Shown one piece after another: positions 16,703 to 44,987 of a stretch of 64,000 nucleotides of DNA (position 1 is its first letter; every line of letters begins with the position of its first letter). The DNA is taken from contig CM026570.1 of assembly GCA_015143295.1 (NCBI GenBank), positions 10,316,047-10,380,046 of the forward strand, in the 5' to 3' direction. Below the pieces are notes generated by a model. That model ran no database searches. It was not told the DNA's origin and saw only the letters and a list, made by a program, of their open reading frames with translations. Position numbers and translations under genes: made by a program. This DNA is from Tetracentron sinense (lineage: Eukaryota; Streptophyta; Magnoliopsida; Trochodendrales; Trochodendraceae).

Positions 16703-16938
16703 ACTCCTCTACAGTATATGTATTCACTTTTTCGGTAAGTTTTCTTGTAAACCCAACAAATAAAAGAAAAAACTGAACACAATAAAAAAGGATATCTACT
16801 AAGAAGCCAGACTTTGTGTCAAAAAGTTTGTATTTTCGATTCTCTCGTTTCTCATTCCTCAGGATTTCCCTCCTGATCTGGCTATTATTGTAGATAAAGA
16901 TAGATCCGGTTGGTTGTAAATATTGGTGGGGTTCGTAT

Positions 16939-17009
16939 AAAAAGCTATTGAATTAACTGAACAAGTAGATACAAAAGGAATTCAAGTATAAATTGCGGGT
17001 CGTATCGAC
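16939..17009 (+). pseudogene. rps3: Plastid rps3 fragment (nuclear plastid DNA insert)
   Basis: Translation in one frame gives [16 protein letters not shown], then a stop (TAA at 16989-16991), then IAGRID. From my knowledge of plant chloroplast ribosomal protein S3 this matches the segment near its C-terminal third, where Q occupies the stop position. Copy 2 (49469-49532) still has CAA there, so the stop arose in copy 1 by C to T. Only about 70 bases are recognisable; similarity ends at ATCGAC. No expression is expected. Confidence 0.7.
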
Positions 17010-17094
17010 TCGATGGATGGAGGGAGGGAAAGCCCCTATCTTATAGAGTGAGCTCCCCTTCCGTGGGGTCTGTCCCACTCCCCCGGCCCTAGTG

Positions 17095-18410
17095 GCTTTT
17101 TGCAAATACACTGTTGTATAATCACAGTTTTGCAAATTAACTCATTGTTTTCCCACAGTTGGACAAATAACCTCAACTCATAGTTCCGTTAGACTTTCAT
17201 TTGTAATTATTATCAAATGACTATAATGCCCTTAAGAGTTCCCTAACCTTACAAAGTCCCTTTAACTGCTCTTGAACTATGATTAATAATTTTAGCCCTT
17301 ATGGTTAATTAATTTTTTTAATATTTTCTTAAAATTCAAGGTTAGATGCTTTAATCTAAGGATTATTGAATCTTAACCATAGTTGAATGGAGTTTAAAGG
17401 CGACATGTTAAATTTTTTTTCTAAAAACCAAGGTTAGATGCTTTAACCCAAGGGTTAGTGAATCTTAACCAGAGTTAAAGGGAGTTAAAAGGAGACACTA
17501 TTTTCTTTCTACAAACCAAGGTTAGATGCTTTAACCCTAAGGGTTAGTGAATTTTAACATCACGTAACATGTTAATTTTTTAAAAAAAATTCTAAAAACC
17601 AAAGTTAGATTCTTTAACCCTAAGAGTTAGTAAATCTTAACCACAGTTAAAGAGTTAAAAAGGGACACATTAATTTTTTTTTTAATACAAACGTTAGATT
17701 ACTTAACCCTAAGGGTTAGTGAACCCTAACCACAATTACAAGAAGTTATAAGACAGGTAAATTTTTTTTTTTTTTCTCAAAACCAAGGTAGATGCTTTAA
17801 CCCTAAAGGTTAGTTGATCTTAACTACAGTTAAAGGGAATTAAAACTAGATATGTTAAATTTTAATTTTTTAAAACTAAGGTTAGATGCTTTAATCCTAA
17901 GTGCTAGTGAATCCTAACCACGGTTAAAGAGAGTTAAGAGGGGACACATTAATTTTTTTCTTCTAAATATAAGGGTTAGATGCTTTAACCGTAAGGATTA
18001 ATGAATCTTAATAAGAGTTAAAAGGGGACACGTTAATTTTTTTCTTTTAAAAATCAAGATTAGATGCTTTAACCCTAAGGGTTAGTATATCTTAACCATA
18101 GTTAAAGGGGACACATTAATTTTTACAACCAAGATTAGACGCTTTATCCTTAAGGGTGTGAATCTTAATCATAGTTAAAGAAAGTTAAAATGGGACAAAT
18201 TAACCAAAAGGGTTGAAACCTGTTATCCATAGTTCAAGGATAGTTAAAGGGGTTGTGAGGTAATGAAATATCTTAAGGGTGTAAAAGTCATTTTACTAAC
18301 AATAATAAACGAAAGTCTAACGGAACTAAGGGTCGAGGTTGTTGTCTAATGGTTGCAAAACCATGACTTAATTTGTAAGACTGTTACACGTAACAATGTA
18401 TTTGTACAGC
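17095..18410. mobile_element. Foldback element with long inverted ends and an internal tandem array
   Basis: The outer about 200 bases at each side are imperfect inverted repeats: GCTTTTTGCAAATACA..., then TAGTTCCGTTAGACTTTC, then GCCCTTAAGAG, mirrored at 18410-18215. Between them lie about 10 tandem units of 80-95 bp (about 17290-18215), each with TTAGATGCTTTAACCCTAAG, GTTAGTGAATCTTAACC and GGGACACATTAATTTT. The unit resembles the subterminal part of the MITE cluster at 12.3-13.4 kb. No transposase and no clear target duplication. Confidence 0.7.
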
Positions 18411-19049
18411 AAATAGAACCTAGCAACTGATATGCAAAAACCCCCAACAAAAAAAAAAACTTATTTCTTCTAATTTCTATCACTTTCTTGTGGAAGGATC
18501 ACCTTTACAAGCAGCTTATCTTGCTTATCTTGCAGGTTCAAAAAGAGGAATGCTAGATTTCCGTATTTTAATGGTGAGAGTTATTTTTTTAGTCTCCTTG
18601 CAAATTTGCAAACGTAATGGGAGAGCAACGACATAAGTGGCTTTCCCAATTAGATTATGGGATTTTGAGAGCCCCATTAGCAATCATATCATTCTACTAA
18701 TAAAAATATAAGGAGTATGCAAAACTTTATTTGGAAGTAAATATACTTTAATTAAAAATATTAACTTACTAACCTATTATATCTACTAAAAAAAAATTAA
18801 TAGAAGTTTTAACTTGTTTATAATTGTAGATGTGGAATACCTCACGAATAGCACTCCCCTCTCTAGGTTGAAGAGTCCAATATGGACTCTCATTCTCTCT
18901 TGTCTAAGTTTTTTTTTTAAAAAGTTATGGGATCCACTCGATATGGAGGTTTTCTTGCCCTTTCATTCACTCTATTCCCTCACCTCATGTATTCAACCTC
19001 CCAGGTGAGTCCCCTTCCTTTTTTTAAAATTTTTTTTTATTATTATTAT
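18411..19049. other. Non-coding stretch
   Basis: No gene recognised. A short frame near 18495-18590 reads GSPLQAAYLAYLAGSKRG, where copy 2 lacks a 9-base repeat (CTTATCTTG); I cannot assign it. The rest is AT-rich. Confidence 0.4.
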
Positions 19050-19482
19050 TAACAGAAACCCCGCGCGATGCACGGATGTGAATAAAGAAATAAAAAATAA
19101 ATCTCTACCCCTCTTATCAAAATTTCTCTCTACATTCTCTCTTTTATCCCTCTTATCACAATCCTCTAAAACCGCTCTTTACATTCAATCTCTTTTATCA
19201 CAATCTCCTTAAATCTCTCCCTTTCTACAGGTGCCAAAGAGAGATAATGGTTGAGATTAGATATACAACGGTGGACGGAACAATCTCCTAAAATCCCTCA
19301 AATGGTGTTTGAATTGAGAGGGAAATTGAGAGAGAGAGAGTTAATAATTGAGATTAAAGAAGAGAGCCACATGGTATCCTTAAAATAGAACTCATACGAT
19401 TCTTGAGATTAAAGATTAGAGAATAAAGAGATGAGGTTAGCTAGGTGATACTTATTTCTTTATATAATAGTTAAGTATAGAT
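19050..19482 (-). mobile_element. Helitron-like non-autonomous element
   Basis: On the minus strand the 5' end reads TCTATACTTAACTATTATATA, close to plant Helitron starts, with host T next to it. The 3' end has a GC-rich hairpin CCGTGCATCGCGCGG (19059-19075) followed by GGTTTCTG. In copy 2 (about 51585-52013) the hairpin is perfect (CCGTGC/GCACGG). The terminal CTRR is not clear, so the exact 3' boundary is uncertain. No Rep/helicase is present. Confidence 0.5.
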
Positions 19483-19788
19483 AGATGCCACTCCTCTCCA
19501 TCTCCCTTTATTATATAAGGAGACGGGTTAGCCCATTAGATTGGGCTCGACCCACCAGGACTCGAGCCTTATGCCTGAGACAGGCTGCAATGGACTGAAC
19601 CCACTTACACTTGATTTTTTTTCTAAAGCCTACTTACACTTGTATTTGTTTTGTATCAGTTTTAATTTGATAAAAATTAAAGTTCAAGTCATGAGCCCAA
19701 TCATGAAGCTCGGAATTCTCATGTAACAATACAAATTTGAAAAGGTATGAGAAGAGTTTATGTACCCAGTCATCTCGCAGCCACGATT

Positions 19789-20043
19789 TCAAGCTACAGT
19801 ACTAAGCGCATACTTCTTGAAATCAGTTGAGTTAAACATGAAATCCTCCAAGCACTCCAATTCGAGAGTAAGATAAATGGGGTCGAGATGCTCATTCATC
19901 ACAAGACATATGCTTAGAGTCTTCCCAAGAGCAACCACAATGTTCTCATAGTAAGTACTTAGCCCTTTGGCGTAATCCTTAGTTGTATTAACAGTGCTCC
20001 ACTTCGTCCTTTCAATGATTTGATCAAACACAGGAGGTTGCAG
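19789..20043 (-). pseudogene. Gene-like exon fragment of unknown identity
   Basis: An 80-codon frame ends at 19789, and open sequence continues upstream to a splice-acceptor-like TTTTCTAG at 20044-20047. The protein segment (MFDQIIERTKWSTVNTT ... LELECLEDFMFNSTDFKKYA) has protein-like composition and looks like the last exon of a host gene, with a possible 3' UTR to about 19540. I do not recognise the family. Copy 2 (about 52325-52576) has a 1-base insertion that breaks the frame. It sits between two Helitron-like ends and may have been captured or interrupted by them. Confidence 0.45.
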
Positions 20044-20198
20044 CTAGAAAAGAGACCCCGTGCGATGCACGGATAATAATTTAGGAATATCTAAAATTAA
20101 ATAATATTATTTATTTATTTAAATATTAAATAATATTTTAGGAATATTTAATATATATCTTTTAAATATTATATGTTTTATTATTATTATTTGATAGA
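20044..20198 (-). mobile_element. Short Helitron-like element
   Basis: On the minus strand it starts TCTATCAAATAATAATAATA and ends with hairpin CCGTGC-ATC-GCACGG, then GGTCTCTTTT and CTAG, the canonical Helitron 3' layout. It is only about 155 bases and very AT-rich inside. Copy 2 equivalent about 52577-52732. Confidence 0.55.
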
Positions 20199-20207
20199 TA
20201 TCATTGT

Positions 20208-20713
20208 TTGTCCTTACCTCACTTGAGGTTTGCCCAAATTATAAAAACTCCCCTCTTATTTTTGAAATTATACTACCATTCTTTGACGTTTGGTAAAATT
20301 GTAATAAACTTCACTCTTGTTTTTAAAATTACACCATCCTCTCTTATCCGGCTCGTTAAGTTGACACTCTTAATGGAGGATGCACTTTAACGATATTTTC
20401 CCCCATTTATTTGCTTGAGGAAACAACATCGTATAACCAAGTTGACTGACTTTAAATATGATAATTTGAGAATTTTAAATTGTGTAAACCATGAAATATT
20501 CAAAATTCATCTATGCTAGTAACGACATACTAATGAAAGGAAGAATCTATTACCGATAATTGAAGTGGAGTGGATGACAATGTAATTTTAGAAACAAAAG
20601 GAAGGTCTAAGCAATTTCTCCAAATCTCAAGGGGAGGTCTGTGTAATTTCAAAAACAATAAGAAAGGTTTTGCAATTTAACCAAACATCAATGACCACTA
20701 CTGTAATTTATCC
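20208..20713. mobile_element. Foldback MITE
   Basis: The left part (TTGCCCAAATTATAAAAACTCCCC..., ...TTTTTAAAATTACACCATCC) and right part (...GATGACAATGTAATTTTAG, ...GCAATTTAACCAAACATCA) are imperfect inverted repeats of over 100 bases. Copy 2 equivalent about 52739-53251. Non-coding. Confidence 0.5.
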
Positions 20714-20977
20714 CCAGAAATACTTTATAGTCATTGTTGTTTTGTTGATAATGTGTCTTTTTCAAAGGACTGCGCCATGAGCTATGCGTATTTCCATTGG
20801 CTATAAAAAAAGTTGACTTGAAATTCTATAACTGTTTCTGTTGTACCCGGACTCGGAGGAGTCTAGTTACAACACAAAATCATTCTTTTAACTTTGGTTA
20901 ACAACTTTAATTTTATAGTAAATATTTTTATAATTTTTTTTCTAAATCCCAATACAATTAATATTTTTATAATTTTT

Positions 20978-21245
20978 TTTCTCAGAACCAAAGGTAGATG
21001 GTTGAAACCTAAGGATTAGTAAATCTTAACCACAATTAAGGAGTATTCAAAGGGACACATGTTGACCCGTGGGACGTAACTGTAAAGAATTTCACGACTA
21101 AAATGTTTCATAACTTTAGATCAGACCGGTTATAACATGGAGGTGACACCCTTCGTTGTTCATTTTTTTTTGAGCAGTGATAGGCGAACCTAGGAAATGG
21201 ATTTTAAGTCCATCCTTGGATTTTAAAATCCATTTCTTAGGTACG
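20978..21245. repeat. Half-MITE and short hairpin
   Basis: 20978-21100 matches the right half of the 12.3-13.4 kb MITE family (TCTTAACCACAATTAAGGAG, GGGACACATGTTGACC). At about 21190-21242 a hairpin has arms CCTAGGAAATGGATTTTAA and its inverse, about 19 bases each. Confidence 0.5.
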
Positions 21246-23300
21246 TTTAACTATTCCTTTTTTTTTTTTTCTTTTCTGCTTTGGGATATCATTTACCTAA
21301 GGTAGTACCGTGTTGGCAGGAAATCTGGTTGTGTGCCAGCGGCAAGTAGCATAACATAAAACGGTTTTACAATTGTGAACCCGTTTCGGTGTCAACATAC
21401 GGTTAGTGGTTTTCACCAGAGCTCCTTATTAGCGTCAAAAATCTTACTCTTAACATCAAAAGGAAGGTAAAGTTTAATAGAGCTCCCGTAGACACCAGAT
21501 TCCAGCACCGACGAAGATGACTGAAAGAACAATACTCTATATCTCTGCACAGAGATGGAACCCGGACCCGGAGTCCACCAGGCACCAGGCACTAGTGATA
21601 TCCATGAGACTGTGGACGTACGGATAATGTGGCTCCTGTGGTTCCTCCCTTGCATTTAACCCATTTAAAGAACTCCTCAACTCTAATCCACAATCCTAGC
21701 CCAATTAAAATACGTAACTAAATAGAGATATTACTTAAACTGAAAATTATAATAACAGTTAAATTGAAATTTAACAATTGTCTATATATTAAGTATATAA
21801 TTATGGATAGTAGTTATAAAAATTAACTCGGTACTACAACCTATTAGGTCAATTGCGTCAATGGATCCCAACCTAAACACAATTTTTGTCAATCAAATTG
21901 GACGGCCAAAACTATGCTATTGGGGAGTCAAATTCACCCAATCTTAATCTCCTAGGATTTATTCGGATTCTGTTCCTACTCCTCGTTACTAAATTTCTAA
22001 GATGGCAACGCGTATTTCTCTCTGTGAGTTTTGGCTCAAATTTTGTATATGGGTTTTGTTGGGAAGTTGGTATGGATCTTACCCGAATGCTTGATGACCC
22101 GGTGTGCGACCTGAGTGATCCAAAATTTTGATCCGTATTTCCGACGTGTTTGTCTTCTCGTTGTAACCCTAGATATATTAAGAGTTTTCTTTGAGGATGT
22201 GAGATAAGGAGTTTTTTCGAGGGTTTCAGAAGAGGGTTTCAGGAGAGCATGTATACACTATTTTTCTCCCGTATTCTTAATGAATTTCTTTCCGTTTTCT
22301 CCCGTGAACGTAAGCACCTTGCCGAACCATGTATATCTTGTCTCCCTTGTGCGATTGCTTGATTTCTCGTTTTCTTGTTTCTCTAGATTTGTTGAACTGG
22401 TTATAACACTCTCCCCAACGATAGGTCTTGAAACCTCTCTCATTGTATGGGAATTCCTTAAAACAACCTATACCAAGCATTTAACCCCAAACTCTTCGAA
22501 AAGAGTCCATTCCCATGTCCAACTACCTCAATCAGATTATGAGCATTGTCGATGCTCTTGCCGCTATTCAAGATGCGGTCTCTGATCGGGACTTAGAGTG
22601 ATATGTGCTCCTGGAGGATTATCACATGAAATGAATCCTTTGTGACAGCCATAACCAATCGAGTAGAACCGATTGGTTTTTCGGAACTTCGCTCGAGATT
22701 GTTCACTCACGAGCAAAGGCTTCCTCTGTTTCGGTCAACCCCAACCATGTTCTTTATACAGATCGTCAACCTAATCGTGGTCATGGCTGAGACTATAACA
22801 GACCTCTTAATCAACGCAACTACTGGAACGACAACAACAATAGAGGCCCAATTGATTTTCGCAGTAGGAATAACACCTATAACAATGCAATTGAACTGAA
22901 TGAATTTTGTAATAGGGGGCCAACTTATTTTCGAGGTCCATAAACAATATAATCCATGCGAGAAACCTCCTATTCCAAATCAAGGAACTCGTCAAATCTG
23001 CAATCCCTCATACCATGGTGCTCTCCGTTGCCAAAATCGCTTCAACCATTCTTACCAAGAAGGGCTCCCCAATCATTTGCAGCTATGACAATTGGCTCTC
23101 CAGGTGATGACAATTGGTACCTTGATATTGGTGCAACCAGTCACGTGATTCATGTTCAATCCATCCTCCAACAACCAGAATTATACACTGGAAACGATCA
23201 AATGATATCGGTAATGGAACATGTATCCCATTTATAACTCACATTGGTATATCTTCTTTTCACATTTCGAGTCGTGATTTTCATCTCAAAGACGTATTAC

Positions 23301-23464
23301 TTGTGCCTCAAATTGCTAAAAACTCCTCTCAATTGCTTCATTCACAAGAGACAACAACTGTGCGTTTAATATAAAGGATCTGTTGTGCCTCAAATTGCTA
23401 AAAATCTCCTCTCAATTGCTTCATTCACAAGAGACAACAACTGTGCGTTTAATATATAGGATCT
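23301..23464 (+). repeat. 82-bp tandem duplication inside the copia remnant
   Basis: Two consecutive units start TTGTGCCTCAAATTGCTAAA and end near AGGATCT. Also present in copy 2 (55835-55998), so it predates the large duplication. Confidence 0.85.
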
Positions 23465-23842
23465 ATGAACAGGGAAATGCCTAGTCACGGGATAAATTAA
23501 TGGAGACTTGTACCCACTTTCGCTAAGCATTGACAATCAAATAAAGCTTTTACAAGTGCTGTCTCGTCTTCTATAGTGGCATCACAAACTTGGACATCCG
23601 TCAGCCTTATTCTACGTTACCTGTCTTCCAATAAATGTATCGATGCTTCAATAAAAATGCTAAAAATATTTTCCCATGATTGTAGCATTGTTAAGCATCA
23701 TAAGATCTAATTCCATAATGTATTGCATACGCCCCCTCATCCCTTATACTTAATTCACAGCAACGTGTGGGAACCATCCCCTGTTTCATCAGTCTCTAAT
23801 TACCGATACTATATCATCTTCATTGGTGAGTTTAGCCGGTAC

Positions 23843-25488
23843 TGTCGGGCCTCAAAACCCCACCTAGGAGAATGTGAGATCTTGGCACATGACTTACTTG
23901 ACAAACCATCTTGTTAAAGCATTTAAGGCATACTAAAATACGATCTTAAAAATTTATTCAATTAAAACATCAACTAAATTCATAATCATTGACTGCAACT
24001 AAAATAAATTAAATATGATCTTCCATCATGATCATCCTCAAACTAAACTAACATAAATATCCATAAAGTAAATTGAAGTTTCCTTGAAATTTGACCATAA
24101 CCAAATAAAATTCAACAGTAGGGCCAACGATCAAGATCCCGTTCTTCCTCAGGATAATCACATTCCAGTTCCTCGAAGTATTCCTCTTCTTCCCACGGTC
24201 CAGGCGAACAAATATCAAAACCTGAACCAGCCGACAACAAAAGTCATCGGTTGAGTAACGAGTTACTCTGTGTATATAACAGACCATAGAGGATAATATA
24301 ATGAATATTAAATTACATGCAGTATACAAATTCATACATTAGTTCACGTACATAATCAGAGTGCGGAAAAAAAACAACCAAATACATTGTGTCAATCTTT
24401 TTTTTTTTTTTTTTACTTTTCTGATTACATACTTTATTGTTTCAGGAACAAATCATTCACATGCATTATTAATAACTTAAAATACCGCTTTACCGTATAA
24501 AGAAATGAGTTACTATACTTTACTTTACCGAGACACTACCCTTCGTACATTACCCGGCACGGATGGCTTAGTACATTTCAATACGACGGCTTACTTACTT
24601 TGGCATACTATTCGCCATTTGATGGTATCCGGTGGTGCACAACACATATATACATTATCGCTTTTGTGTGTTCTTCTTCTTACTTACTTACTTTTATATT
24701 CGGTCTTACTTATTCTTTTCTTAGTGTCTTAGATTCTCTCTTAATCATTATGCATATTTTTCATTCGTGAGTGCTCAATGATACATCTTTTGTTTAAATT
24801 ACACCTAAGAGTAACCGTCAAGGGCCATAGGACATCTTACCATAGCACCCCATCCCATTATGTTAACCGAGCCTAGGCAAGCTTGACTTTCCTTAAAGGC
24901 TCCTTTACCCAAATGTATATCACGTATAAGGAACATAAAAGAAGCGCACAAAATATCATATTTCCAAACGAATTGATAACATAAAATCACAGTTATATCA
25001 AGCACTCATAAATCACGATTTGATGTAAATGTCAAAATTTCCTTTCTGTTTAAATCAAGATCAACATCCTCATTTTAACCCATTCACCAATTAGAATTTT
25101 CGTGAATTATAAAAATATAAAATCAACTCACATACAGTTAAAATCTCATAATAATTTATCTATTCAATTCATCTATTCTCCTTAATCATCCATACACTTC
25201 AATAAAATTTCCAAATCGATCACCGCCGGTGGGCGATCGATCGGCCAACGCGCCGATCTTCATTTTTTTTTTTTTTTTTAAAGTCTTTTGCTACTTTTTG
25301 TTCTTCTTTTATTTTATGTAATTTATTCTTCCAAACTAGCTAAATTGAATGAAATAAATAGTTTTTCTCATCCGAGATTTTAACACATTAATTTCTCCTA
25401 GGATTTATGTATAATTCTTGTGTATTTTTCTAGAAAATTAAATTATATAACCGGCAAACAAGGAATTTAAATTCAGGTCATTACATCA
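23843..25488 (-). mobile_element. Solo LTR of a second Ty3/gypsy family inside copia integrase
   Basis: On the minus strand it starts TGATGTAATGACCTG and ends GGCCCGACA (1,646 bp). It is flanked by GTAC (23839-23842 and 25489-25492), and the copia integrase frame resumes directly across it, which fixes the boundaries. No coding region inside. Copy 2: 56378-58025. Confidence 0.8.
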
Positions 25489-25609
25489 GTACATATGGTT
25501 TTATCGTATGAAATTGAAATCGGATATCAAGACATGCTTTGACCATTTTCAAAAAGTTGTTGAAAACCTTTTCTCTAGAAAGATCAAACACTTTAAAGTG
25601 ACGGGGTGA

Positions 25610-26407
25610 ATGATAATTGTATAAAACTTACTTTTTCTCTTTTATTACATATTACTGAATATTAACATGGTCACTCGGGCTTAATTGAGTTAATTTTCTA
25701 TTATATGTGTTAAAATCAAAGTTGTGTGAAAAAAACCCAAAAAAAAGTAATTTAGTGATTGATTAAAGAGGAAATCTTAAAAAATTAGAATTTTCCGAAT
25801 TGGGAAGATACTATTGGAAAGGATGAAAAGAAAAGAAAGATGACTTAGAAAAGAAAGAAAGAATTGAAAAGAAACAAAAAAAATGAAAGAGTTTATTACA
25901 AAAAGGGAGAAAATCTTTTTTCTCTCCCACTTTTAATTTGCAACATCTTCTCTCTTCTACTTTTGTTACTTACGTAACTTTCTTTCTCTCTATTCTCACA
26001 CACTTTTTCTCTGTCGTATCTTACATTTTCTTTTTTTCTCATTCTTCTAGTTATTTTTAGGGTCATTTTTTAGCTTTGTTGAAGATTGTTCTATGACAAT
26101 GGCAGGCTAAAACCCTATTTAAGACTAAAGGTGAAACCTAATGATTATGTTTTTTTGTTTTTGATTCAAAAAATTTGGGATTAATGTTTAGTTTTGATTA
26201 AGTGATTAGTTGAATTATGTTCGATAAATATTGCATACCTATGTATTTTCTTTAATTAATCATTATTTAAAATTGTTACATTGAATGTTTAGAGAATCTC
26301 TGTGATGTGTCAATAAAGTTAGATTGTTCTTCTCTTCTATCCCACAATATAATTTTCAAGATTTTATTTGTTATATTTTTTTATTAGATAAAATCTTTAT
26401 TCAATTC
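25610..26407. other. Non-coding stretch with pyrimidine-rich block
   Basis: No gene recognised. It contains a CT-rich segment (about 25910-26050) and AT-rich flanks. It has the look of a promoter or leader but no adjacent coding region supports that. Copy 2: 58148-58946. Confidence 0.4.
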
Positions 26408-26643
26408 TGTAAGCACCCCATTTTTACACCCCCTAAGCTTTGGGCTCAAGGCCCATTACACTAGGACAAACCCTAGGAGAGCCCTAGACCAAACCCTAGA
26501 CCTAGCCCTAGCTAAACCCTAGCCCAAGACCTAGGACAAACCCTATGGGTTCAAGGCCCACTACACAACCCATCCAAAAAAAAAAGCCTTAAAACCAAGG
26601 CCCAAACACTTTAGGGCCCACACTTGGGCCCACCTCAACCCAT
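26408..26643 (+). mobile_element. Truncated gypsy LTR at the duplication junction
   Basis: The first 235 bases match the LTR of the element at 58947, including the subtype-specific stretch CCCTAGACCAAACCCTAGAC that the 30247 element lacks. It stops at CCTCAACCCAT and joins the start of copy 2. It is the copied piece of the 58947 element, not an independent insertion. Confidence 0.9.
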
Positions 26644-30246: not shown

Positions 30247-32631
30247 TGTAAGCACCCCATTTTTACACCCCCCTAAGCCCTAGGACGAACCCTAGTGAAA
30301 CCTTAGGACAACCCCTAAAACCTTAGAATCTCCCCCCTAAGCTTTGGGCTCAAGGCCCATTACACTAGGACAAATCCTAGGAGAGACCTAGGACAAACCC
30401 TATGGGCTCAAGGCCCACTACACAACCCATCCAACAAAAAGCCTTAAAACCAAGGCCCAAACACTTTAGGGCCCACACTTGGGCCCACCTCAACCCATGA
30501 GGATCACATGGGTGGGACCCACAAACCCTAAATCCAAAATGGGCGGGAATTGCCCTAAATGGCTGCCCACAACCCTTTTGACCCAAGTGGATTTGGGTTT
30601 GGCCCGAAATAGCATGAAATCGGTAATGTCCCCAATCGAATTACCGACATTAAGTTTTTGGCCTATTTTTTTAATGTCCCCATTTGGATTACCGACATTA
30701 CCGTGTTTCCATGTTTAGCGTGTGCAGGCTCCACTGCAGCACCACCAGAGGCTTGGGACCTCCCCCATTGGTCCCTGGACCTTCCCTAAATACCCTAAAT
30801 GCCCTTGGGAGTCCTCCTTCATTTCCTATAAATCCCAAGCCATCCCCATGCAAAATCCAAGCTTTTCCATTTGCATCAAACCCCTGTCCGAGCTCATCCA
30901 GTAACTAGGACTTGTTTGAACCCTCCTTCAGTATCATTAAGCCGTCCTAGGCCAGTCCCGGACACCGCCACCACCTTGGCTCCACCTCAACCGACCGTCC
31001 AAGGGTAGGGATCATCCCTCACCCCTCCTTTTTGCTGCTCTTACTGTAAGGGACCTCTGGTCCTGATCCAGGGGTCCCCTTTTGCTTTCCCTTCAATTGT
31101 ATGGTTGCTACAGCCGAGGATAGGGGTCCCCCGCCTTCACCATAGGTGTAGGGAACTCCCTAGAGGCTAAGTTCGGGTGCAACACTTCACCCATTGTGCA
31201 TGGAAGCCTCCCATAGGGTCTGAGGGTCCCTCAAGCCATGAGAGAACCTTTAAACCCCTTTTGGTTCAAAGCCAGTGGGCAAAAATCGGTTTTTGAAAGA
31301 ATCTGCTAGTGGTCGGCAGAATAATTGCCGACCACACAAAATTGGGCTAAAAGCTTAATGTCCTCATTTGGTTTACCGACATGCTCAAAATAGCCTAAAA
31401 ACTCTTTGTCCCCATTTGGTTTACCGACATAATGAGCTTATTTTGGTACTGACTTCGGGCGCCTGTGGGGCCCACATGCCAAGTCCTCTGGGGTCCACCC
31501 CAGGCTTGTTGGAAAGCTCTTGATCTCCCCTAGCTCCCTGTAAAATTTCAGGTTCAGGGGCTATGCCTAACCATGATTAACAAACCCCTAAAGATGGGTT
31601 AAAATACTGTTCATAGTGTCGGCAGTTCAAATGCCTACATTACAGACTAATTTTTACCTGACTTTGAGTCCCTGTAGGGCCCACACCTGGCATATTCAGA
31701 GGCTGAGACCTATACCATTTGAAAGGTGACACTCCCAACTTTCTAACCTTGCTTTTGTTTTACCCAGGGGGGATCCCTAACCCTAGTTAATCACCCACAA
31801 ACTCTGGTTAAAATATTGCTGAAATGGAGGTAATCCGATTACTTCCATTTTGGAATTTCTTGATTTCGGGCTTTGTGAAGGGCCCAAACCTGGTAGGAGG
31901 CCACTCTAGGCCCTGCCATACCCTTTGGGCCCATCCTTGACTGACCTTGACCCTTAACCATGGTTAAAATGGCCCCCCGGTTAACATTTAACCATGGTTA
32001 AGCACCACTTAACCCCACAAAAAATATGGAAAAATCTCTAAAAATCCATAAAAATGCAAAACACCAAAAAAACATCAATCTTGCTTGCTTGCTTGCTTTC
32101 TTAACCATGGTTAATACCTTTCTAACTGCGGTTAGACTCTACTTTGCACTTGACCAACTCGGTCAGCCAACCCTAACCTCCGGGCTAGACCCTTGACCAC
32201 CTTGCACACACACACACCCCTAGCCTTGGCACGGACTCATGTTCCAGAACTACGCTCGGTCTGATCTCACCCCTATGTGAGTACGTAGGCAATCCAACTC
32301 GGATTCGACCCCAGTCTAGACAACCCCTAGTCTAGCTTGCTTTGCTTATTTTTTTATTAACATTTCATTAAGCACTTAAGCATTTAATTAATTTTGAGAT
32401 TAAACTTGGCTTAACTATAGGGAGTAGGTAACCATTTCTTAAATGGGGGTCTTGGGGTGCCTAACACCTTCCTCAAGGCTTAATCGAGCCATTTACCCTA
32501 ATCTTTGATAGACCTTTTGCCTTATCTAAATAATTGCTTACCCGGGACCTATCCCTAAGAATGAATAGGTGGCGACTCTAAAAGCCAATCTTTGCTTTTA
32601 TGTGGGCGGACCGCAAAATCCCATGCTCACA
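30247..32631 (+). repeat. Left LTR of the TR-GAG element
   Basis: 2,385 bp. TATA box TATAAAT at 30827-30833. It contains hairpin CGGTAAT/ATTACCG (30621-30646), a perfect 10-bp hairpin GTGGTCGGCA/TGCCGACCAC (31309-31335), four copies of a TGTCCCCATTTGG-TACCGACA motif, several TTAACCATGGTTAA palindromes, and the two-hairpin module at 32250-32305. It lacks a 20-base segment present in the right LTR near 39850. Confidence 0.9.
32250..32305 (+). other. Two-hairpin LTR module (left LTR)
   Basis: CTACG (32250), stem CTCAC (32266-32270)/GTGAG (32277-32281), TACGTAGGCA (32282-32291), stem AATCC (32291-32295)/GGATT (32301-32305). A third hairpin CCATTT/AAATGG follows at 32432-32446 before GGGTGCCTAACACC. 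The right LTR has the same module at about 40017-40072. Confidence 0.6.
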
Positions 32632-32635
32632 GCTC

Positions 32636-32653
32636 TGGCGACTCTGCTGGGGA
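32636..32653 (+). other. Primer binding site, complementary to tRNA-Arg
   Basis: TGGCGACTCTGCTGGGGA, four bases after the LTR end. It complements the 3' end of plant tRNA-Arg(ACG) (...CCCCAGCGGAGTCG plus CCA) with one mismatch, from my knowledge of that tRNA. tRNA-Arg priming is known for Ogre/Tat-type elements. Confidence 0.8.
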
Positions 32654-33647
32654 CGATGGTTCAAGCCAGAATCTACACTTAAGCCAAATTAATCTCAACA
32701 TTAATCAACATGCTTAATTGTTTAATCAAGTGCTAATATTTCTTATGGGTGTGCATTTCATACATATCATTGGTAGTGTAATAACCCAACACCTATTAGA
32801 CAGGCTTATTACGCTAAAGGCCGCTGGATGATGATCCTCGGTGTCAGTAGCTTAAACGTCTTGGAGGTCCGCGGAATTTTGCCTGTCGGGTGATGATCCT
32901 CAGGAAACGATTCTGAACGCTCCCGCTTACACCAATCGTCCCCGGTATGTTCTATACCTTGGAGTCGCATATACGGTGTTAAGTGATCCCCCCATCTTGC
33001 TAGGAACACCTCCTGCATTACACCAGCATACATACATATAGCCTAGGCTAGAGTATAATCTACAAGCAGTCCATCCGGGAGGGGTTATCCTAAGCCCTAA
33101 CCTGCTTGCACCTTATATCTGGCCCCTGTCATGGTTGACTAACCGGGCACATTCTACCCGGATAAGCACCCACCCAGGGGCATGTACTGAGCCTTTTGTT
33201 GTGCCTGTAATAAAATGCACTCTACCCTACTTCCCGACATAACATATGGGGTTCAAAACCCAGGTAGATAGGTCTTCACCAGACCTACTCTCATTTTTGA
33301 CCTGATAGGCCCTCGGTTCCCAATAACCCGGGTAAAGCATGTCGGACCTCTCTCCGTCTGCCCTATCGGATCACATATGTCTTGTCACACCAAATTCCAA
33401 AAAAAATTCAAAAAATTCAAAAATCAAAAATCAAAATTCTCTCTCCTGCATGTCATTCTGAATTCCAGAATAGGGGCATTACCCCTATGTCAGTTAGACT
33501 GCTAGGTCTTTTGCTTGCTTGTCAATCTTCCCGCCCTTATCTACTCCGGCTCTTACTCTATACATTTCCATTATTTCAGGAGCAGACCCTGAGTTGAGTA
33601 CTTATCTGAAAGATACCACCAATTGATATCTGATCAAGCAATACAGT
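32654..33647 (+). other. Untranslated leader of the TR-GAG element
   Basis: About 1 kb between primer site and gag with no convincing frame. Contains two GGATGATGATCCTC-like blocks (about 32825 and 32890) and an A-rich CAAAAATCAAAA segment (about 33390-33440). It may hold packaging signals; not determinable here. Confidence 0.5.
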
Positions 33648-35225
33648 ATGGATCAATTAGTGGATGGACATGAGACTGATCCTGATACCCCGACATCTCA
33701 GCAGCTGCAAGCCCCGAGCCTCGAGGCAAGAATGACTGAGAATTCCCGGAGCATAGAAGAGCTGAAAAACATTGTGCATGATTTTATGCGAGCAGTAACA
33801 CATGCTCTCTCCTCCTCAAATCCTCGACCGGCCGATGTGCCAGACCCATCACAAGCTAATCCGCCACATATCAACAATCTTATCCCACAACCACCTGTCA
33901 TCAACATCCCTCCATCACCTATTCAACCACAAACCGACTTTACCTTCGGCATGCCACCTCCTCCTGTTCAACCACAACCCATTCCCCACATCATACCTCT
34001 CATCACTGACCAGTTTGAGGAGGAGGAAGCTAGGGCCGGCAATGAACCCCATACTGGATCAACTCACATATCTTCCAGTTCGGCACAGATTCCAGATGCT
34101 TACAAGGAGAGGATTGAGAAGTTAGAAGAATTGGTGAAGACAGTGCAAGGAACCCGTAAATCTGCAGATTTCAAAGACATGTGCATGCACCCAGGGATTC
34201 AATTGCCCCGGGATTTCAAGATACCTGATTTCGATAAGTACAATGGGAAGGGATGTCCCGAGATGCACCTAAGGGTTTACCGAGGAGAGCTGTTCCAGTT
34301 GGAACACGATAACAAACTCTTGGTCCAGTTATTTCAGAAGAGTCTGAAAGGAGCAGCCCTACAGTGGTTCACTAAAGTCGACCCTAACAAAGTCAAGACA
34401 TGGGAGGGCCTCTGTGAAACTTTCTTGGCTAAATACTCATACAATGTCGATCTAGTCCCCCAGAGGGTAGATTTGGAAAAAATGTCACAGAGGGATAATG
34501 AGTCCTTCATCGAGTACTCTGTTCGATGGAGAGAAGTCGCTGGAAAAATGAGCACCTCTCTGCCGGAAGATGAGCAAGTGACTACTTTCCTCCGCACTCT
34601 CAAGCATCCGCTAAAGACTCTCTTGGCCGCACAACCAGTCTCTGATTTCAGTACAATGGCCAAATGTGGCGCTAGGATTGAGGCAACCATGGACGATATA
34701 GGGGCATTTGACATGTTCCAAGCTTCAAAGGGTGCATCCTCTTCCCGTGCTCCCCTGCCTCCAAGGAAGGACAACAGAAGGAAAGAGAGTGATGGACAAA
34801 TGGTCGCGGCCATTCGAGTCCCCAACCTCCCTCAACAACCTCGGCAACCACCGCAGCCTCGGCAGCCTCAACAAGCTCCACAGAATCAAAGGAAACTCCT
34901 CTCTCATCAAATGACCTTTGAACAAAGAAGAAATCGGGTATTCACGCCGCTCCCGTATTCTTTGACATCGCTGCTCCCTTTCTTGTTGAATAAGAAATTG
35001 ATCACTCTGAAGGAACCCCAGCCTCCACCAGTAGTTCTCCCAAAGGGTTACAGACCAGACCAACACTGTGGATATCATCAGTCGCCAGGACATCCTACGG
35101 ATCTATGCTATGACTTCAAGCATGCTATCCAAGACCTATTGGAGACAGATGCAATTCGCTTTGAACCAGGAAATGAGGACATCACTCAAGTCCCTCTGCC
35201 CAACCATGCTACTCCTGGAAATTAA
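33648..35225 (+). CDS. gag: Gag polyprotein of the TR-GAG element (intact, 525 aa)
   Basis: Structural capsid protein of a Ty3/gypsy retrotransposon, expected to assemble the cytoplasmic particle that packages element RNA. Residues about 1-55 are charged and possibly helical; 60-130 are Pro/Gln-rich; about 150-172 form a short coiled coil (YKERIEKLEELVKTVQ). The retrotransposon Gag core is at about 190-310 with GAALQWF, FLAKYSYN and SVRWREVAGKM. A second P/Q-rich linker lies around 395-420, and a C-terminal zinc-knuckle-like CGYHQSPGHPTDLC at about 474-487 is followed by a conserved-type HAIQDLLE. The ATG at 33648 begins a continuous frame, and the truncated-looking relative at 62393 starts at the same codon with the same total length. 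It ends without overlapping a pol frame, so no Gag-Pol fusion is possible. Confidence 0.92.
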   Translation: MDQLVDGHETDPDTPTSQQLQAPSLEARMTENSRSIEELKNIVHDFMRAVTHALSSSNPRPADVPDPSQANPPHINNLIPQPPVINIPPSPIQPQTDFTFGMPPPPVQPQPIPHIIPLITDQFEEEEARAGNEPHTGSTHISSSSAQIPDAYKERIEKLEELVKTVQGTRKSADFKDMCMHPGIQLPRDFKIPDFDKYNGKGCPEMHLRVYRGELFQLEHDNKLLVQLFQKSLKGAALQWFTKVDPNKVKTWEGLCETFLAKYSYNVDLVPQRVDLEKMSQRDNESFIEYSVRWREVAGKMSTSLPEDEQVTTFLRTLKHPLKTLLAAQPVSDFSTMAKCGARIEATMDDIGAFDMFQASKGASSSRAPLPPRKDNRRKESDGQMVAAIRVPNLPQQPRQPPQPRQPQQAPQNQRKLLSHQMTFEQRRNRVFTPLPYSLTSLLPFLLNKKLITLKEPQPPPVVLPKGYRPDQHCGYHQSPGHPTDLCYDFKHAIQDLLETDAIRFEPGNEDITQVPLPNHATPGN

Positions 35226-35915
35226 GGTTGCATCGGCCAGAATCTTCAGTCAAATTTTGAGCAAACTCTGATTTTTTGTGATGTCTTTGCTTTATTTTCA
35301 TCAGTTATCTTGCAGTTAGCCACAGTGGCCCGTGTCGGTCTCTTTTCCCCAATCTAATCGGTCAGTGGCCAGTCGCCTTACTTCAGTTGCTTTGTTTTGA
35401 AGTCAGTTTGTGTCCAGTGGCCTTTGTTTTAGTGTCTTTTGTCGTGTTTGTTCACCCATTAATATCTTAATGAAATGACTCGTTTAAATCAAATTCTCAC
35501 TATGCTCTGAGATGCTTACTTTGGGAACCGAACTAGCTTTTAATGCCCTAGGAATAATTTGATAAAGGTTGATCACTCAAATCGATGGATATCCTTACAA
35601 GATTGAACATTCCTGAACAAGAACAATACAAGAATTGAAGACCTCTCTGAGTCATCAAGTGTCAATCAACTGAAATGAGGATGATGCAATGTCCATACAT
35701 GCTCTCGACCAATCAAGGAAAAGATATGAGGCCATCTCTTGATACCCCTTTCAATATCTCTCTTACCCATGCTGTATACATATTCGCTAGTTAGACCTTT
35801 GAGCCTGCTAACCTTTATTTCAAACACCCACATATGGGCACTCCTTGAAAGTCAAAGAACAATACAAAGGAACAGCCAGCAAAGAGCAACAGCATCAAGT
35901 GGCCTTTCGGCCGAA

Positions 35916-35966
35916 CTACGTCTTGACCTGATCCCTATTTGGGTACGTAGGCAGCCTGAAATCAGG
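35916..35966 (+). other. Internal copy of the two-hairpin module
   Basis: CTACG (35916), weak stem CCC (35933-35935)/GGG (35941-35943), TACGTAGGCA (35944-35953), strong stem CCTGA (35955-35959)/TCAGG (35962-35966). An outer CCGAA/TTCGG pairing is also possible (35911/35967). It lies inside the element, not in an LTR, so it is either an LTR relic or an independently retained signal. Confidence 0.55.
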
Positions 35967-36361
35967 TTCGGTCATAACAAAACAAATGTTCACAATACAA
36001 GGCAACTGTGTACAAAGAAAAACAAAAAAAAAAAAAAAAGAGAAGAAAAGAAAAGCACTTGGCCAAAAGGCGAAGCAAAGCTTCATTAAAGGGAAAAATG
36101 CAGAAGCTGGTTCTATACCAACAATGAACAAAGGTCATAGGGTGCCTTATCCTTGCTGAGGCATTGAATTTTGAGCTTGATCTCGTTTCTAGCCAAACCA
36201 CGTTTCGTCCTAGATATTAAGCCCTCCTTGATCCCTGAAAGGACTTGAGCATCAATGGTCAAAAGCATTCATCACCATTTTCGACAGGCAATGACGAGAG
36301 AAGAGCGGAACATTATCAAAGCAAATTCGAGAGCAGAACATGAGAAATGCAAAGCTTGTAT

Positions 36362-36595
36362 ACCCAGTCCTGGTGAACCCGAAAGAGCCCAGGGGCAAAA
36401 AAGGGATAAATCAAACTTCTAAATTCACGGGCATAGCAAGGAATCACCAATCCGGCTACTGCGCAAAAATTACGTGAACCCAGTCCTGGTGAAAACCTGA
36501 AAAGGCCCAGGGGCAAAAAAGGGACAAAGATCAACATGTACAACCCAGTCCTGGTGATAACCTGAAAAGGCCCAGGGGCAAAAAAGGGAAAGATA
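36362..36595 (+). repeat. Three-unit repeat with purine tract-like ends
   Basis: ACCCAGTCCTGGTGA ... GGCCCAGGGGCAAAAAAGGG occurs at about 36362, 36478 and 36544. The GGGGCAAAAAAGGG core resembles the element's own purine tract (AAAAGGGGCAGC). Confidence 0.75.
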
Positions 36596-37192
36596 AACAA
36601 GTGCAAGCTTTGCTAGCCGATGATCAAACATCATGATCAACCACGGCTTAATTATCTTTCTCTGAAGGCTAAAGAACCTAGCTAGGTCTCCCATTATAAG
36701 CAATCTCAGGTACTGTTCAAAATACAAACAGTCAATTTCATTGTTTACAGTCTGCTAGTCAACTGTCAGTCCACCACTTGTCAGTCAGTTCATTTGTCTT
36801 TCTAACAAGTCAATCGTATCATTTGTCAGTTATTCACACTTTTTAGTCAAGTTTCAACCTCCAGTAGAGTCAGCTCAATGTCGACTGTTCATTCTCACTG
36901 GTGCAAGGAAAGTATTGATACTAGGGCAAAGCAAAGTCAGTAGACTATCCCGGGCAAACACAGATATCTGAAGCGGATCGGTACATCCTGGGGGGCAAGT
37001 GCCAACAATCGGATCACCCGAGTAAGGGGCATTTCAAATCTATGAGGTTATTTGTGCAAGGAGGCAGAGATTCAGGTTAAGGCTCAGGGTCACCGCTCTC
37101 ATTCCTCATATCAAACTCATCTTGCTTTCTTTGTTTCACGAACTTCCTATCATTCCAGATCACTATCTTTGGTTTTGCTTGCTTGCTTTTCA

Positions 37193-37816
37193 GGTGGACC
37201 AGTCGGGCGGCTGTCTTTACCCTCATCTCCTTTGCTTACTTCCGTGTAAAGCAGTCGGGCGGCTGTCTTTACCCTGCTTGCTTGCTTCCGCGTAAAGCAG
37301 TCGGGCGGCTGTCTTTACTTGCTTGCTTACTTTTCAGGTGAACCGGTCGGACGACTGTCTTCACCTTCATCTCTTTTGCTTGCTTCCGTGTAAAGCAGTC
37401 AGGCGGCTGTCTTTACCCTATTTGCTTGCTTTCCAGGTATAGCAGTCGGGCGGCTGTCTTCACCTTCATCTCCTTCGCTTGCTTCCGTGTAAAGCAGTCG
37501 GGCGGCTGTCTTTACTTGCTTGCTTACTTTTTAGGTGAACCCGTCGGGCGGCTGTCTTCACCTTCATCTCCTTCGTTTGCTTCCGTGTAAAGCAGTCGGG
37601 CGGCTGTTTTTACCCTGCTTGCTTGCTTTCCTGGTGGACCAGTCGGGCGGCTGCCTTCATCCTCATCACCTATGTTTGTTTTCGTGTAAAGCAGTCGGGC
37701 GACTGTCTTTACTCTCTCATCTTTCTTGCTTGCTCCAGGTAAAGCAGTCGGGCGGCTGTCTTTACTCTCCTCTCTCTTGGCTTGCTACTCTGTCAGACAA
37801 TCGGGCGGTTGTCTAC
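37193..37816 (+). repeat. Array of about 13 hairpin-forming repeats
   Basis: Units of about 45-53 bp alternate two spacer types and share AGTCGGGCGGCTGTCTTTAC. In most units the core folds as GTAAAG-CAGTC-GGGC-GGCTG-T-CTTTAC. Variants keep pairing by matched changes: GGTGAA with TTCACC (units near 37340 and 37535), CAGTC with GACTG (37693), AGACAATC with GGTTGTCT (37794-37813). Spacers are pyrimidine-rich (CTTGCTTGCTT). It sits in the 3' non-coding region just upstream of the purine tract. Confidence 0.8.
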
Positions 37817-37980
37817 AATCTTGCTCTGCTAGTTCATTATTTTAGGAGTACACTAAGTTGGAACGAACGAGTATCCACTCCTCTTCCTCACCATGTGTGC
37901 TTTCATCCATCCTGCTTGCTGGTAAAAATTGGTTGATTCCAGTCTTTGTCATTCAATTGCCAAACTCGGTACTCTCTGAC

Positions 37981-37992
37981 AAAAAGGGGCAG
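37981..37992 (+). other. Polypurine tract
   Basis: AAAAGGGGCAGC lies immediately before the right LTR (37993), as expected for the plus-strand primer. Confidence 0.7.
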
Positions 37993-40397
37993 CTGTAAGC
38001 ACCCCATTTTTACACCCCCCTAAGCCCTAGGACGAACCCTAGTGAAACCTTAGGACAACCCCTAAAACCTTAGAATCTCCCCCCTAAGCTTTGGGCTCAA
38101 GGCCCATTACACTAGGACAAATCCTAGGAGAGACCTAGGACAAACCCTATGGGCTCAAGGCCCACTACACAACCCATCCAAAAAAAAGCCTTAAAACCAA
38201 GGCCCAAACACTTTAGGGCCCACACTTGGGCCCACCTCAACTCATGAGGATCACATGGGTGGGACCCACAAACCCTAAATCCAAAATGGGCGGGAATTGC
38301 CCTAAATGGTTGCCCACAACCCTTTTGACCCAAGTGGATTTGGGTTTGGCCCGAAATAGCATGAAATCGGTAATGTCCCCAATCGAATTACCGACATTAA
38401 GTTTTTGGCCTATTTTTTTAATGTCCCCATTTGGATTACCGACATTACCGTGTTTCCAGGTTTAGCGTGTGCAGGCTCCACTGCAGCACCACCAGAGGCT
38501 TGGGACCTCCCCCATTGGTCCCTGGACCTTCCCTAAATACCCTAAATGCCCTTGGGCGTCCTCCTTCATTTCCTATAAATCTCAAGCCATCCCCATGCAA
38601 AATCCAAGATTTTCCATTTGCATCAAACCCCTGTCCGAGCTCATCCAGTAACTAGGACTTGTTTGAACCCTCCTTCAGTATCATTAGGCCGTCCTAGGCC
38701 AGTCCTGGACACCGCCACCACCTTGGCTCCACCTCAACCGACCGTCCAAGGGTAGGGATCATCCCTCACCCCTCCTTTTTGCTGCTCTTACTGTAAGGGA
38801 CCCCTGGTCCTGATCCAGGGGTCCCCTTTTGCTTTCCCTTCAATTGTATGGTTGCTACAGCCGAGGATAGGGGTCCCCCGCCTTCACCATAGGTGTAGGG
38901 AACTCCCTAGAGGCTAAGTTCGGGTGCAACACTTCACCCATTGTGCATGGAAGCCTCCCATAGGGTCTGAGGGTCCCTCAAGCCATGAGAGAACCTTTAG
39001 ACCCCTTTTGGTTCAAAGCCAGTGGGCAAAAATCGGTTTTTGAAAGAATCTGCTAGTGGTCGGTAGAATAATTGCCGACCACACAAAATTGGGCTAAAAG
39101 CTTAATGTCCCCATTTGGTTTACCGACATGCTCAAAATAGCCTAAAAACTCTTTGTCCCCATTTGGTTTACCGACATAATGAGCTTATTTTGGTACTGAC
39201 TTCGGGCGCTTGTGGGGCCCACATGCCAAGTCCTCTGGGATCCACCCCAGGCTTGTTGGAAAGCTCTTGATCTCCCCTAGCTCCCTGTAAAATTTCAGGT
39301 TCAGGGGCCATGCCTAACCATGATTAACAGACCCCTAAAGATGGGTTAAAATACTGTTCATAGTGTCGGCAGTTCAAATGCCTACATTACAGACTAATTT
39401 TTACCTGACTTTGAGTCCCTGTAGGGCCCACACCTGGCATATTCAGAGGCTGAGACCTATACCATTTGAAAGGTGACACTTCCAACTTTCTAACCTTGCT
39501 TTTGTTTTACCCAAGGGTGATCCCTAACCCTAGTTAATCACCCACAAACTCTGGTTAAAATATTGCTGAAATGGAGGTAATCCGATTACCTCCATTTTGG
39601 AATTTCTTGATTTTGGGCTTTGTGAAGGGCCCAAACCTGGTAGGAGGCCACTCTAGGCCCTGCCATACCCTTTGGGCCCATCCTTGACTGACCTTGACCC
39701 TTAACCATGGTTAAAATGGCCCCCCGGTTAATGTTTAACCATGGTTAAGCACCACTTAACCCCACAAAAAATATGGAAAAATCCCTAAAAATCCATAAAA
39801 ATGCAAAACACCAAAAAAATATCAATCTTGCTTGCTTGCTTGCTTTCTTAACCATGGTTAGGCCCTCTAACCATGGTTAACACCTTTCTAACTGCGGTTA
39901 GACTCTACTTTGCACTTGACCAACTCGATCAGCCAACCCTAACCTCCGGGCTAGACCCTTGACCACCTTGCACACACACACACCCCTAGCCTTGGCACGG
40001 ACTCATGTGCCAGAACTACGCTCGGTCTGATCTCACCCCTATGTGAGTACGTAGGCAATCCAACTCGGATTCGACCCCAGTCTAGACAACCCCTAGTCTA
40101 GCTTGCTTTGCTTATTTTTTGATTAACATTTCATTAAGCACTTAAGCATTTAATTAATTTTGAGATTAAACTTGGCTTAACTATAGGGAGTAGGTAACCA
40201 TTTCTTAAATGGGGGTCTTGGGGTGCCTAACACCTTCCTCAAGGCTTAATCGAGCCACTTACCCTAATCTTTGATAGACCTTTTGCCTTATCCAAATAAT
40301 TGCTTACCCGGGACCTATCCCTAAGAATGAATAGGTGGCGACTCTAAAAGCCAATCTTTGCTTTTATGTGGGCGGACCGCAAAATCCCGTGCTCACA
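37993..40397 (+). repeat. Right LTR of the TR-GAG element
   Basis: 2,405 bp. TATA box TATAAAT at 38574-38580. Compared with the left LTR it has an extra 20 bases where TTAACCATGGTTA occurs twice, explained by slippage or deletion between these repeats in the left LTR. Confidence 0.9.
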
Positions 40398-44926: not shown

Positions 44927-44987
44927 AACCCGGGTTGGGCTGCCTACGTACTCACATAGGGGTGAGATCAGACCGAGCGTAGTTCTG
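44927..44987 (-). other. Two-hairpin LTR module (minus strand)
   Basis: Read on the minus strand: CTACG, stem CTCAC/GTGAG (44951-44966), TACGTAGGCA (44941-44950), stem AACCC/GGGTT (44927-44936). A further hairpin CCACT-GATA-AGTGG lies at about 44806-44820, at the place where the TR-GAG LTR has CCATTT/AAATGG. Confidence 0.6.

Follow-up and report, generated by a model that had tools for sequence, protein, structure and literature searches.

The question raised by this locus is whether a short motif that recurs in the long terminal repeats (LTRs) of retrotransposons from Tetracentron sinense is a folded RNA and, if so, what the fold does. The window, that is, the whole stretch of 64,000 nucleotides (nt) analysed here (assembly GCA_015143295.1, contig CM026570.1, positions 10,316,047 to 10,380,046, forward strand), contains a gag-only element whose one long frame matches Retrotrans_gag. 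An earlier note on this DNA had observed that CTACG, a stem, the word TACGTAGGCA and a second stem recur in this order in the LTR of that element and elsewhere, and had proposed that these stems and a third hairpin covary and form a cis-acting RNA structure in R/U5. Our comparisons of sequences give us good confidence that the module is a selected sense-strand RNA fold of plant LTR retrotransposons. In these elements, probably of Ty3/gypsy type, it would be a three-way junction, in which a third stem (P1), absent from the earlier note, encloses the two hairpins (P2 and P3). The junction strand TACGTAGGCA would be invariant and the 5' flank GAACTACG near-invariant, and two further hairpins (H3 and H4) would follow in most LTR copies. 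The parts of the module in the gag-only element are these:

30247..32631, plus strand: 5' LTR of the gag-only element, in which about 330 nt follow the module
37994-40397: 3' LTR of the same element, 97.9% identical to the 5' LTR
32247..32254, plus strand: box 1, GAACTACG; its CTACG (32250-32254) is complementary to the CGTAG of box 2, a possible pseudoknot helix
32258..32261, plus strand: P1 5' strand, GGTC, with its partner at 32307-32310
32262..32265, plus strand: junction J12, TGAT (TGAT at 106 of 121 parsed sites, TAAT at 13)
32266..32281, plus strand: P2 hairpin, CTCAC/GTGAG, stem 1 of the earlier note
32282..32291, plus strand: box 2, which is junction J23, TACGTAGGCA; invariant in 43 of 43 aligned rows, the word having been the criterion by which sites were selected
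32292..32304, plus strand: P3 hairpin, ATCC/GGAT, stem 2 of the earlier note
32307..32310, plus strand: P1 3' strand, GACC, pairing with 32258-32261
32432..32446, plus strand: H3 hairpin, CCATTT/AAATGG
32451..32477, plus strand: H4 hairpin, CTTGGGG/CCTCAAG, with a near-invariant loop, TGCCTAACACCTT, at 32458-32470

The 5' strand of P1 consists of 4-6 nt between box 1 and P2, and its partner lies 2 nt past P3. In our test P3 was fixed first and the following positions were then read, so that the choice of partner was independent of pairing. The sample comprised 140 sites, 132 of them distinct, and 121 of these could be parsed. A fully Watson-Crick P1 of 4 base pairs (bp) was present at 78 of the 121 sites at the expected 2-nt offset, compared with at most 2 of 121 at each of ten other offsets. 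The types of P1 were GGTC/GACC (53 sites), GACC/GGTC (16), GGCT/AGCT (8), AGCT/AGCT (5), GGCT/AGCC (2), GGCC/GGCC (1) and GACT/AGTC (1), while P1 contained at least one non-standard pair at 29 of the 121 sites. Moreover, close relatives compensate in P1: GGCT/AGCC in locus L091 corresponds to GACT/AGTC in L092, and GGCC/GGCC in L086 occurs amid GGTC/GACC copies.

For the statistics we used an alignment, made by sequence alone, of 43 of the 121 modules that were no more than 90% identical. In this alignment 91.4% of the cells were paired, a value that 0 of 500 shuffles reached; shuffling gave 83.9% (standard deviation 0.6), and sliding the partner strand at most 46%. Two-sided changes were seen in 4 of 4 pairs of P1, 5 of 5 of P2 and 3 of 4 of P3. 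For P1 alone, 89.0% of the cells were paired, which none of 500 shuffles reached; the shuffles gave 75.1%, and sliding the partner at most 44.8%. The proposal of a cis-acting structure kept by pairing is supported, and the two stems do covary as noted, although one pairing given for stem 2, AACCC/GGGTT at 44927 of the minus strand, would leave no loop; the pairing there is GCCC/GGGT around AACCC. The complementarity of CTACG to CGTAG within TACGTAGGCA had gone unnoticed in the earlier note. The third hairpin is also real: H3 shows two-sided changes in 4 of 5 pairs, and it is followed by a fourth hairpin, H4, with two-sided changes in 7 of 7 stem pairs. Across 35 non-redundant H3-H4 stretches, 85.4% of the cells were paired; shuffling lowered this to 74.8%, and sliding to 63.6% at most.

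In support of these results, all five helices were assessed in a tree-aware test of complementarity, in which each substitution stays on its branch and column and only its outcome is randomised (2000 nulls). With a tree from all columns, the observed pairing was reached by 14 nulls for P1, 29 for P2, 19 for P3, 72 for H3 and 0 for H4; with trees from unpaired columns, the numbers were 0, 7, 10, 12 and 0, respectively. Over the five helices, G-U cells outnumber A-C cells by 89 to 58, which fits an RNA of the sense strand.

Further support came from outside the genome. The two-box pattern, GAACTACG followed by C or T, then 18-42 nt, then TACGTAGGCA, was found at 15 places in a bacterial and archaeal collection of 257 billion bases and at 3 in a viral collection. 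Among these 18 loci the covariance model, built from the 43 modules, scored L164 at 49.3 bits and L152 at 43.6 bits, the next being 19.8; in the plasmid collection no module match was found. The P1 strands of L152 and L164, GGACTT/AAGTCC and GGCCTT/AAGGCC, pair at 6 of 6 bases at the predicted place. As a control, P1 strands mixed among the genome sites matched the full 6-mer anywhere downstream in 449 of 20,000 draws. Both sequences are probably plant DNA. L152 (NZ_QPKJ02000028.1), whose 4.2 kb are recorded as Solirubrobacter, has the look of a plant LTR: TATATATA stands at 1012-1019, the module spans 2826-2896, and TGGCGACTCCACTGGGGA begins at about 3515; by eye, an H4-like hairpin is present, in which TGCCTA and ACCTT flank an insert. 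L164 (JAFUBK010000065.1) is a contig of a gut-bacterium assembly. The further genes scanned on it seem to be bacterial (MreB, SpoIID and others), and its module part was probably plant DNA joined during assembly.

Several observations weigh against a selected fold. When G-U pairs are allowed, P1 is fully paired at 92 of 121 sites at offset 2 but also at 89 of 121 at offset -3, 5 nt away; because the two are nearly equal, more weight falls on the Watson-Crick count. Of the five measures taken for P1 by itself, two do not rise above the shuffles, namely the number of pairs with two-sided changes (reached by 337 of 500) and the number of pair types (500 of 500), and G-U and A-C cells are level in P1 (11 and 11) and in H3 (7 and 8). 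Eleven of the 132 distinct sites, mostly with a weak P3, were left unparsed, an omission that favours the model, and many of the sampled copies are near-identical relatives. Folding of single sequences is unremarkable (z from -0.5 to -2.3 in six modules), and the minimum-energy fold prefers CTACG/CGTAG to P1 in 5 of the 6; in the copy at 32247-32310 it retains P1 and replaces P2 with a CCUAUGU/ACGUAGG hairpin that uses box 2. RNAalifold offers YYTG/TAGG in place of P1. Note, however, that this alternative, which we rejected, has no two-sided change and is reached by 241 and 193 of 2000 nulls. An outer stem, GAAC/GTTC, was also rejected, being broken by eye in L001, L019, L059, L080 (part of the B type), L040 and L041.

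A lack of covariation above phylogeny in R-scape had been named in the earlier note as a result that would refute the structure, and our own imitation of that program in part gave it. In this one-set test, which moves the substitutions of each branch among columns and makes no use of complementarity, 0 of 18 module pairs were significant at E<0.05, five possible pseudoknot pairs included, and 1 of 12 pairs of H3 and H4 was, in H3. Behind it stand about 8-10 types, by eye, and a few deep divisions between them are enough to make all columns covary. The complementarity tests and the two outside sequences, on the other hand, support the stems.

How widespread is the module? In the 1.16 Gb genome TACGTAGGCA has 11,898 exact copies, compared with 721 for the reversed word, and the two-box pattern occurs at 7,550 places (3,060 + 4,490), compared with 2 and 0 for reversed two-box controls. 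The flanks were read at 107 sites, namely the contig C1 sites among the matches listed (100) and those of the window (7), and the module was present at 100 of them (93 of 100 and 7 of 7, respectively). The covariance model gave 93 matches in L001-L088 at E of at most 1.2e-05 and 7 strong ones in the window. Of these 100 modules, 82 are of LTR types and 18 of internal types (B 14, D 3, F 1), which lie outside LTRs where this is visible; L004 is counted as LTR type, having been moved from B after a misassignment by script. Only about 8-10 types, by eye, underlie the sample.

The window itself holds seven modules, with a module length of 65 nt. Exact TACGTAGGCA is found there at 11798, 32282, 35944, 40048, 40704 and 61033 of the plus strand and at 44941-44950 of the minus strand, and an eighth site at 46775, with one mismatch, has no module. 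Allowing one mismatch, these 8 matches compare with a shuffle mean of 1.25, and 0 of 100 shuffles reach 8. The recurring layout was thus located correctly by the earlier note, but what were taken as three LTR families and one internal position are two LTR types and one internal type, because the LTRs at 32282 and 44950 (minus) are variants of one type. Besides the 5' LTR copy, the modules are:

40012..40078, plus strand: in the 3' LTR of the gag-only element, 76.6 bits with the covariance model
35912..35975, plus strand: internal module of B type, P1 GACC/GGTC, 3' of the gag frame 33648-35225, 70.7 bits
60997..61063, plus strand: in a third copy of the gag-only element's LTR type, 72.7 bits
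44920..44986, minus strand: in a variant of that LTR type, 78.3 bits
11763..11828, plus strand: in the C type, the window's other LTR type, with P1 GGCT/AGCT, 72.4 bits
40669..40733, plus strand: in a second C-type copy, interrupted by the gag-only element, 67.9 bits

Among the internal-type modules, seven B loci have an upstream sense frame of at least 150 codons ending 191-201 nt before the module (L001, L003, L007, L079, L019, L020, L080), and integrase matches were found in all four of the frames scanned (L001, L079, L080 and L020), above the Pfam cut-off in L001 and L080. In three more B loci the frame ends 667-686 nt upstream (the window and L038, both gag, and L067); in L059 and L084 the distance is 81 and 893 nt, and L035 and L053 have no frame. 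The D-type modules have frames at 217, 221 and 289 nt upstream, two of which were scanned and had no Pfam match, and L040, of F type, has no upstream sense frame of at least 150 codons. Note that near-identical copies account for several of these loci. An A-type LTR module follows the B-type module 4.1-5.1 kb further on in L080, L019 and the window. These results support the earlier claim that integrase-bearing and gag-only elements have the module in common. The provisional assignment to Ty3/gypsy draws on the Retrotrans_gag and integrase domains found beside the module. A specific role in R/U5 gains no support, since 18 of the 100 modules are of types seen outside LTRs, mostly 3' of a sense frame; with internal copies some 190-200 nt past an integrase frame or some 670-690 nt past gag, to confine the role to R/U5 would be too narrow.

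Within the next 155 nt, an encoded stretch of 10 or more A follows 12 of the 18 internal-type modules and 0 of the 82 LTR-type modules. In the window a run of 16 A at about 36024-36039 follows the internal module within an A-rich or purine-rich run (about 36024-36060), and similar runs were observed in L001, L003, L007, L038, L040, L047, L050, L053, L059, L065 and L084. Chance may account for these runs, or they may serve as an internal polypurine tract or pair with a structure. In L040 the module (967-1030) faces an antisense frame (1243-2001) with Plant mobile domain and DUF7745 matches below the Pfam cut-off.

By regular expression, H4 follows 68 of the 82 LTR-type and 0 of the 18 internal-type modules, and some of the other 14 LTR-type modules have variant loops. 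The H4 loop opens with TGCCTA (32458-32463), which could pair over a long range with its reverse complement in box 2, TAGGCA (32286-32291). Changes of the loop in L078 and L088 are uncompensated in box 2, and that in L041 leaves a G-U pair.

A related motif was found in other LTRs. Seven flank-read sites have no module, and two of these (L023 and L069) read CGTG-TACGTA-GGC..GCC-GAAC-CACG. The motif, CGTGG-ACGTAGGC-loop-GCC-GAA-CCACG, lies at about 996-1030 in L023, at about 975-1015 (minus) in L069, and in L129-L148; by their sequence, the LTRs that bear it look like those of copia elements. ACGTAGGC followed after 3-16 nt by CCGAACCAC has 800 copies genome-wide, compared with 0 in reversed controls. 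The search pattern itself imposed one of the two outer-helix strands; in twenty examples, the opposite strand was CGTGG or near it in most and broken in a few. It is conceivable, though we think it quite unlikely, that both plant LTR superfamilies share a pseudoknotted RNA core in permuted order: GAA-CTACG ... CGTAG-GCA in gypsy and CGTGG-ACGTAGGC ... GCC-GAA-CCACG in the copia-looking LTRs. In gypsy LTRs the junction GGCA may pair with TGCC of the H4 loop, as GGCA-TGCC would inside many copia-type hairpins. If true, a common host factor or tertiary fold would explain why the same words are kept in unrelated elements.

What, then, would the fold do? We suggest that the module works on the RNA of the element once this has been transcribed, and serves there as a platform for recognition. 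As the likeliest mechanism we tentatively put forward a host-facing role, nuclear export or stabilisation of the full-length RNA, because the module is not limited to the leader and because related words are found in another superfamily; export or stability is more likely than packaging. Such a role has precedents in the export elements of mouse LTR elements (PMC12786077) and in the ENE of Evade (PMC12501189).

A signal of the 5' leader for packaging, dimerisation or reverse transcription has a modest chance of being correct. Dimers could start at the TACGTA palindrome, and non-autonomous elements would retain the module so that autonomous partners copy them, as its presence in gag-only and integrase-bearing elements alike would allow. 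The location in the window's LTR, some 330 nt upstream of both the LTR end and the TGGCGACTCTGCTGGGGA that resembles a primer binding site (PBS), is favourable to such a signal, as is the occurrence of H3 and H4 after most LTR-type modules. The same fold, however, is found again 3' of pol, and related boxes occur in copia-looking LTRs, where a Gag-specific signal would be unexpected. We also observed that 32570-32579 in U5 is TGGCGACTCT, identical to the first ten bases of TGGCGACTCTGCTGGGGA, which lies 3' of the LTR at 32636-32653; L152 has a comparable pair at about 3232 and 3515.

Another possibility, which we consider unlikely, is that the module marks or drives the formation of sense 3' ends: those of full-length RNA at the LTR, and those of a shorter mRNA past pol. 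The internal modules with a visible frame do mostly sit just past it, the runs of A follow internal-type modules exclusively, and the antisense frame of L040 converges on the module. Against this, the window LTR lacks AATAAA, and the encoded A runs may be unrelated and are missing from L019, L020 and L080.

We think it very unlikely that the module is an exoribonuclease-resistant RNA (xrRNA), in which the three-way junction and a CTACG/CGTAG pseudoknot hold the 5' flank and block 5'-3' decay. The architecture would suit this role, with a three-way junction whose 5' flank is complementary to the junction, and CTACG and TGAT stand 6-9 nt apart at 120 of 121 sites (search range 4-12 nt) despite hairpin spans of 10-18 nt for P2 and 11-22 nt for P3. 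The pseudoknot, however, does not covary: CTACG/CGTAG is paired in 98.6% of the cells of the 43 modules with zero two-sided changes, and the tree-aware test, with 408 and 460 of 2000 nulls reaching the observed pairing, is uninformative. Because both boxes are invariant, the pseudoknot is unproven. Nor is the restoring combination in excess, since among copies with CTATG in box 1, 107 have the restoring TACATAGGCA and 116 have TATGTAGGCA (two of the four combinations were counted); doubly changed boxes are probably mostly neutral decay, which makes this count weak. Moreover, no Rfam family matched the window or eight loci, and by eye there is no conserved pairing between the P3 loop and the 3' flank. 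P1, supported by covariation, and CTACG/CGTAG, supported by invariance and energy, would together form a possible pseudoknot or two alternative states.

Finally, that the module is a DNA site (the TACGTA palindrome) or that shared descent of a few families mimics conserved stems is hardly credible, even with so few types in the sample, no significance in the one-set test and invariant boxes, given the two-sided changes among close relatives and the two outside sequences that pair in full where mixed strands rarely do.

Candidates of known identity were also discarded. Hammerhead ribozymes have CUGAUGA and GAAA as core strands in a three-way junction; these are absent here, where the junction strands are TGAT, TACGTAGGCA and 2 nt, and there was no Rfam match to a hammerhead-type ribozyme or retrozyme. 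ARAGORN finds no tRNA in the window. Rfam 15 gave 0 matches at gathering score with the whole window and the eight loci, which removes any Rfam family, and the one weak match for window 32150-32450, at E up to 10, lies outside the module.

The selected fold can be compared with described systems. The ENE triple-helix element raises the mobility of Evade (PMC12501189). Like the ENE of Evade/Copia93, the internal module is a structured RNA between a reading frame and the 3' LTR, and the encoded A runs after many of these modules may be a counterpart of its A-rich partner. The ENE, however, clamps the poly(A) tail with U-rich internal loops between G-C helices (PMC12501189); no loop of this kind was seen by eye in the module, which also occurs in LTRs. 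The MusD transport element (MTE) and the IAP RTE, mouse export elements, are likewise compact folds in the RNA of LTR elements, and the MTE has pseudoknot and kissing-loop motifs and acts in export via host factors (PMC12786077); here the hosts are plants, and export is a putative role. With the flaviviral class 1 xrRNA the module shares the three-way junction and possibly a pseudoknot, but it has no Rfam match, and its ring closure and resistance are putative, CTACG/CGTAG being invariant (PMC7527734). The order integrase, module, several kb and 3' LTR module recalls the long POL-3'LTR region of Retand, as do the antisense frame of L040 with its weak Plant mobile domain match and the tandem repeats at 37175-37814 (PMC11963269). 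In the gag-only element these repeats follow gag and precede the 3' LTR. The LTRs of Retand measure 315-1,194 bp, however, compared with 2.4 kb here (PMC11963269).

The remainder of the window provides the context of these copies. The C-type element forms an 18.7 kb unit in tandem (7905-26643 and 26644-59182), and two insertions split its second copy, one being the gag-only element (30247-40397) and the other lying at about 44.6-48.2 kb. A Pfam scan of 20 reading-frame pieces of the window, mostly of the C-type element, did not find retroelement domains, pol included, and a Protein Data Bank (PDB) search with the gag frame gave no match. At 3-875 (minus) a frame with P-type ATPase domains is probably part of a host gene.

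No description of the module was recognised among the open-access literature matches listed, and the literal occurrences of TACGTAGGCA that were examined are maize actin primers. The available text of the Retand study has 0 occurrences of hairpin or secondary structure wording and reports no conserved RNA structure (PMC11963269). That of a 2025 review of the plant LTR-retrotransposon life cycle has zero mentions of packaging signal, dimeriz-, hairpin or secondary structure (PMC12786077). According to the part seen of Benachenhou et al. 2013, variable length prevented the modelling of plant Metaviridae LTRs (PMC3601003). As a kind, structured cis-acting RNAs in LTR elements are already known; this fold appears to be new.

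Plant LTR retrotransposons make up a large part of many plant genomes, and their cis-acting RNA signals are little described. A compact fold that marks both the LTRs and the end of pol would give a handle for finding and classifying these elements and for placing the parts of very long LTRs, as well as a handle on the export, stabilisation and packaging of element RNA.

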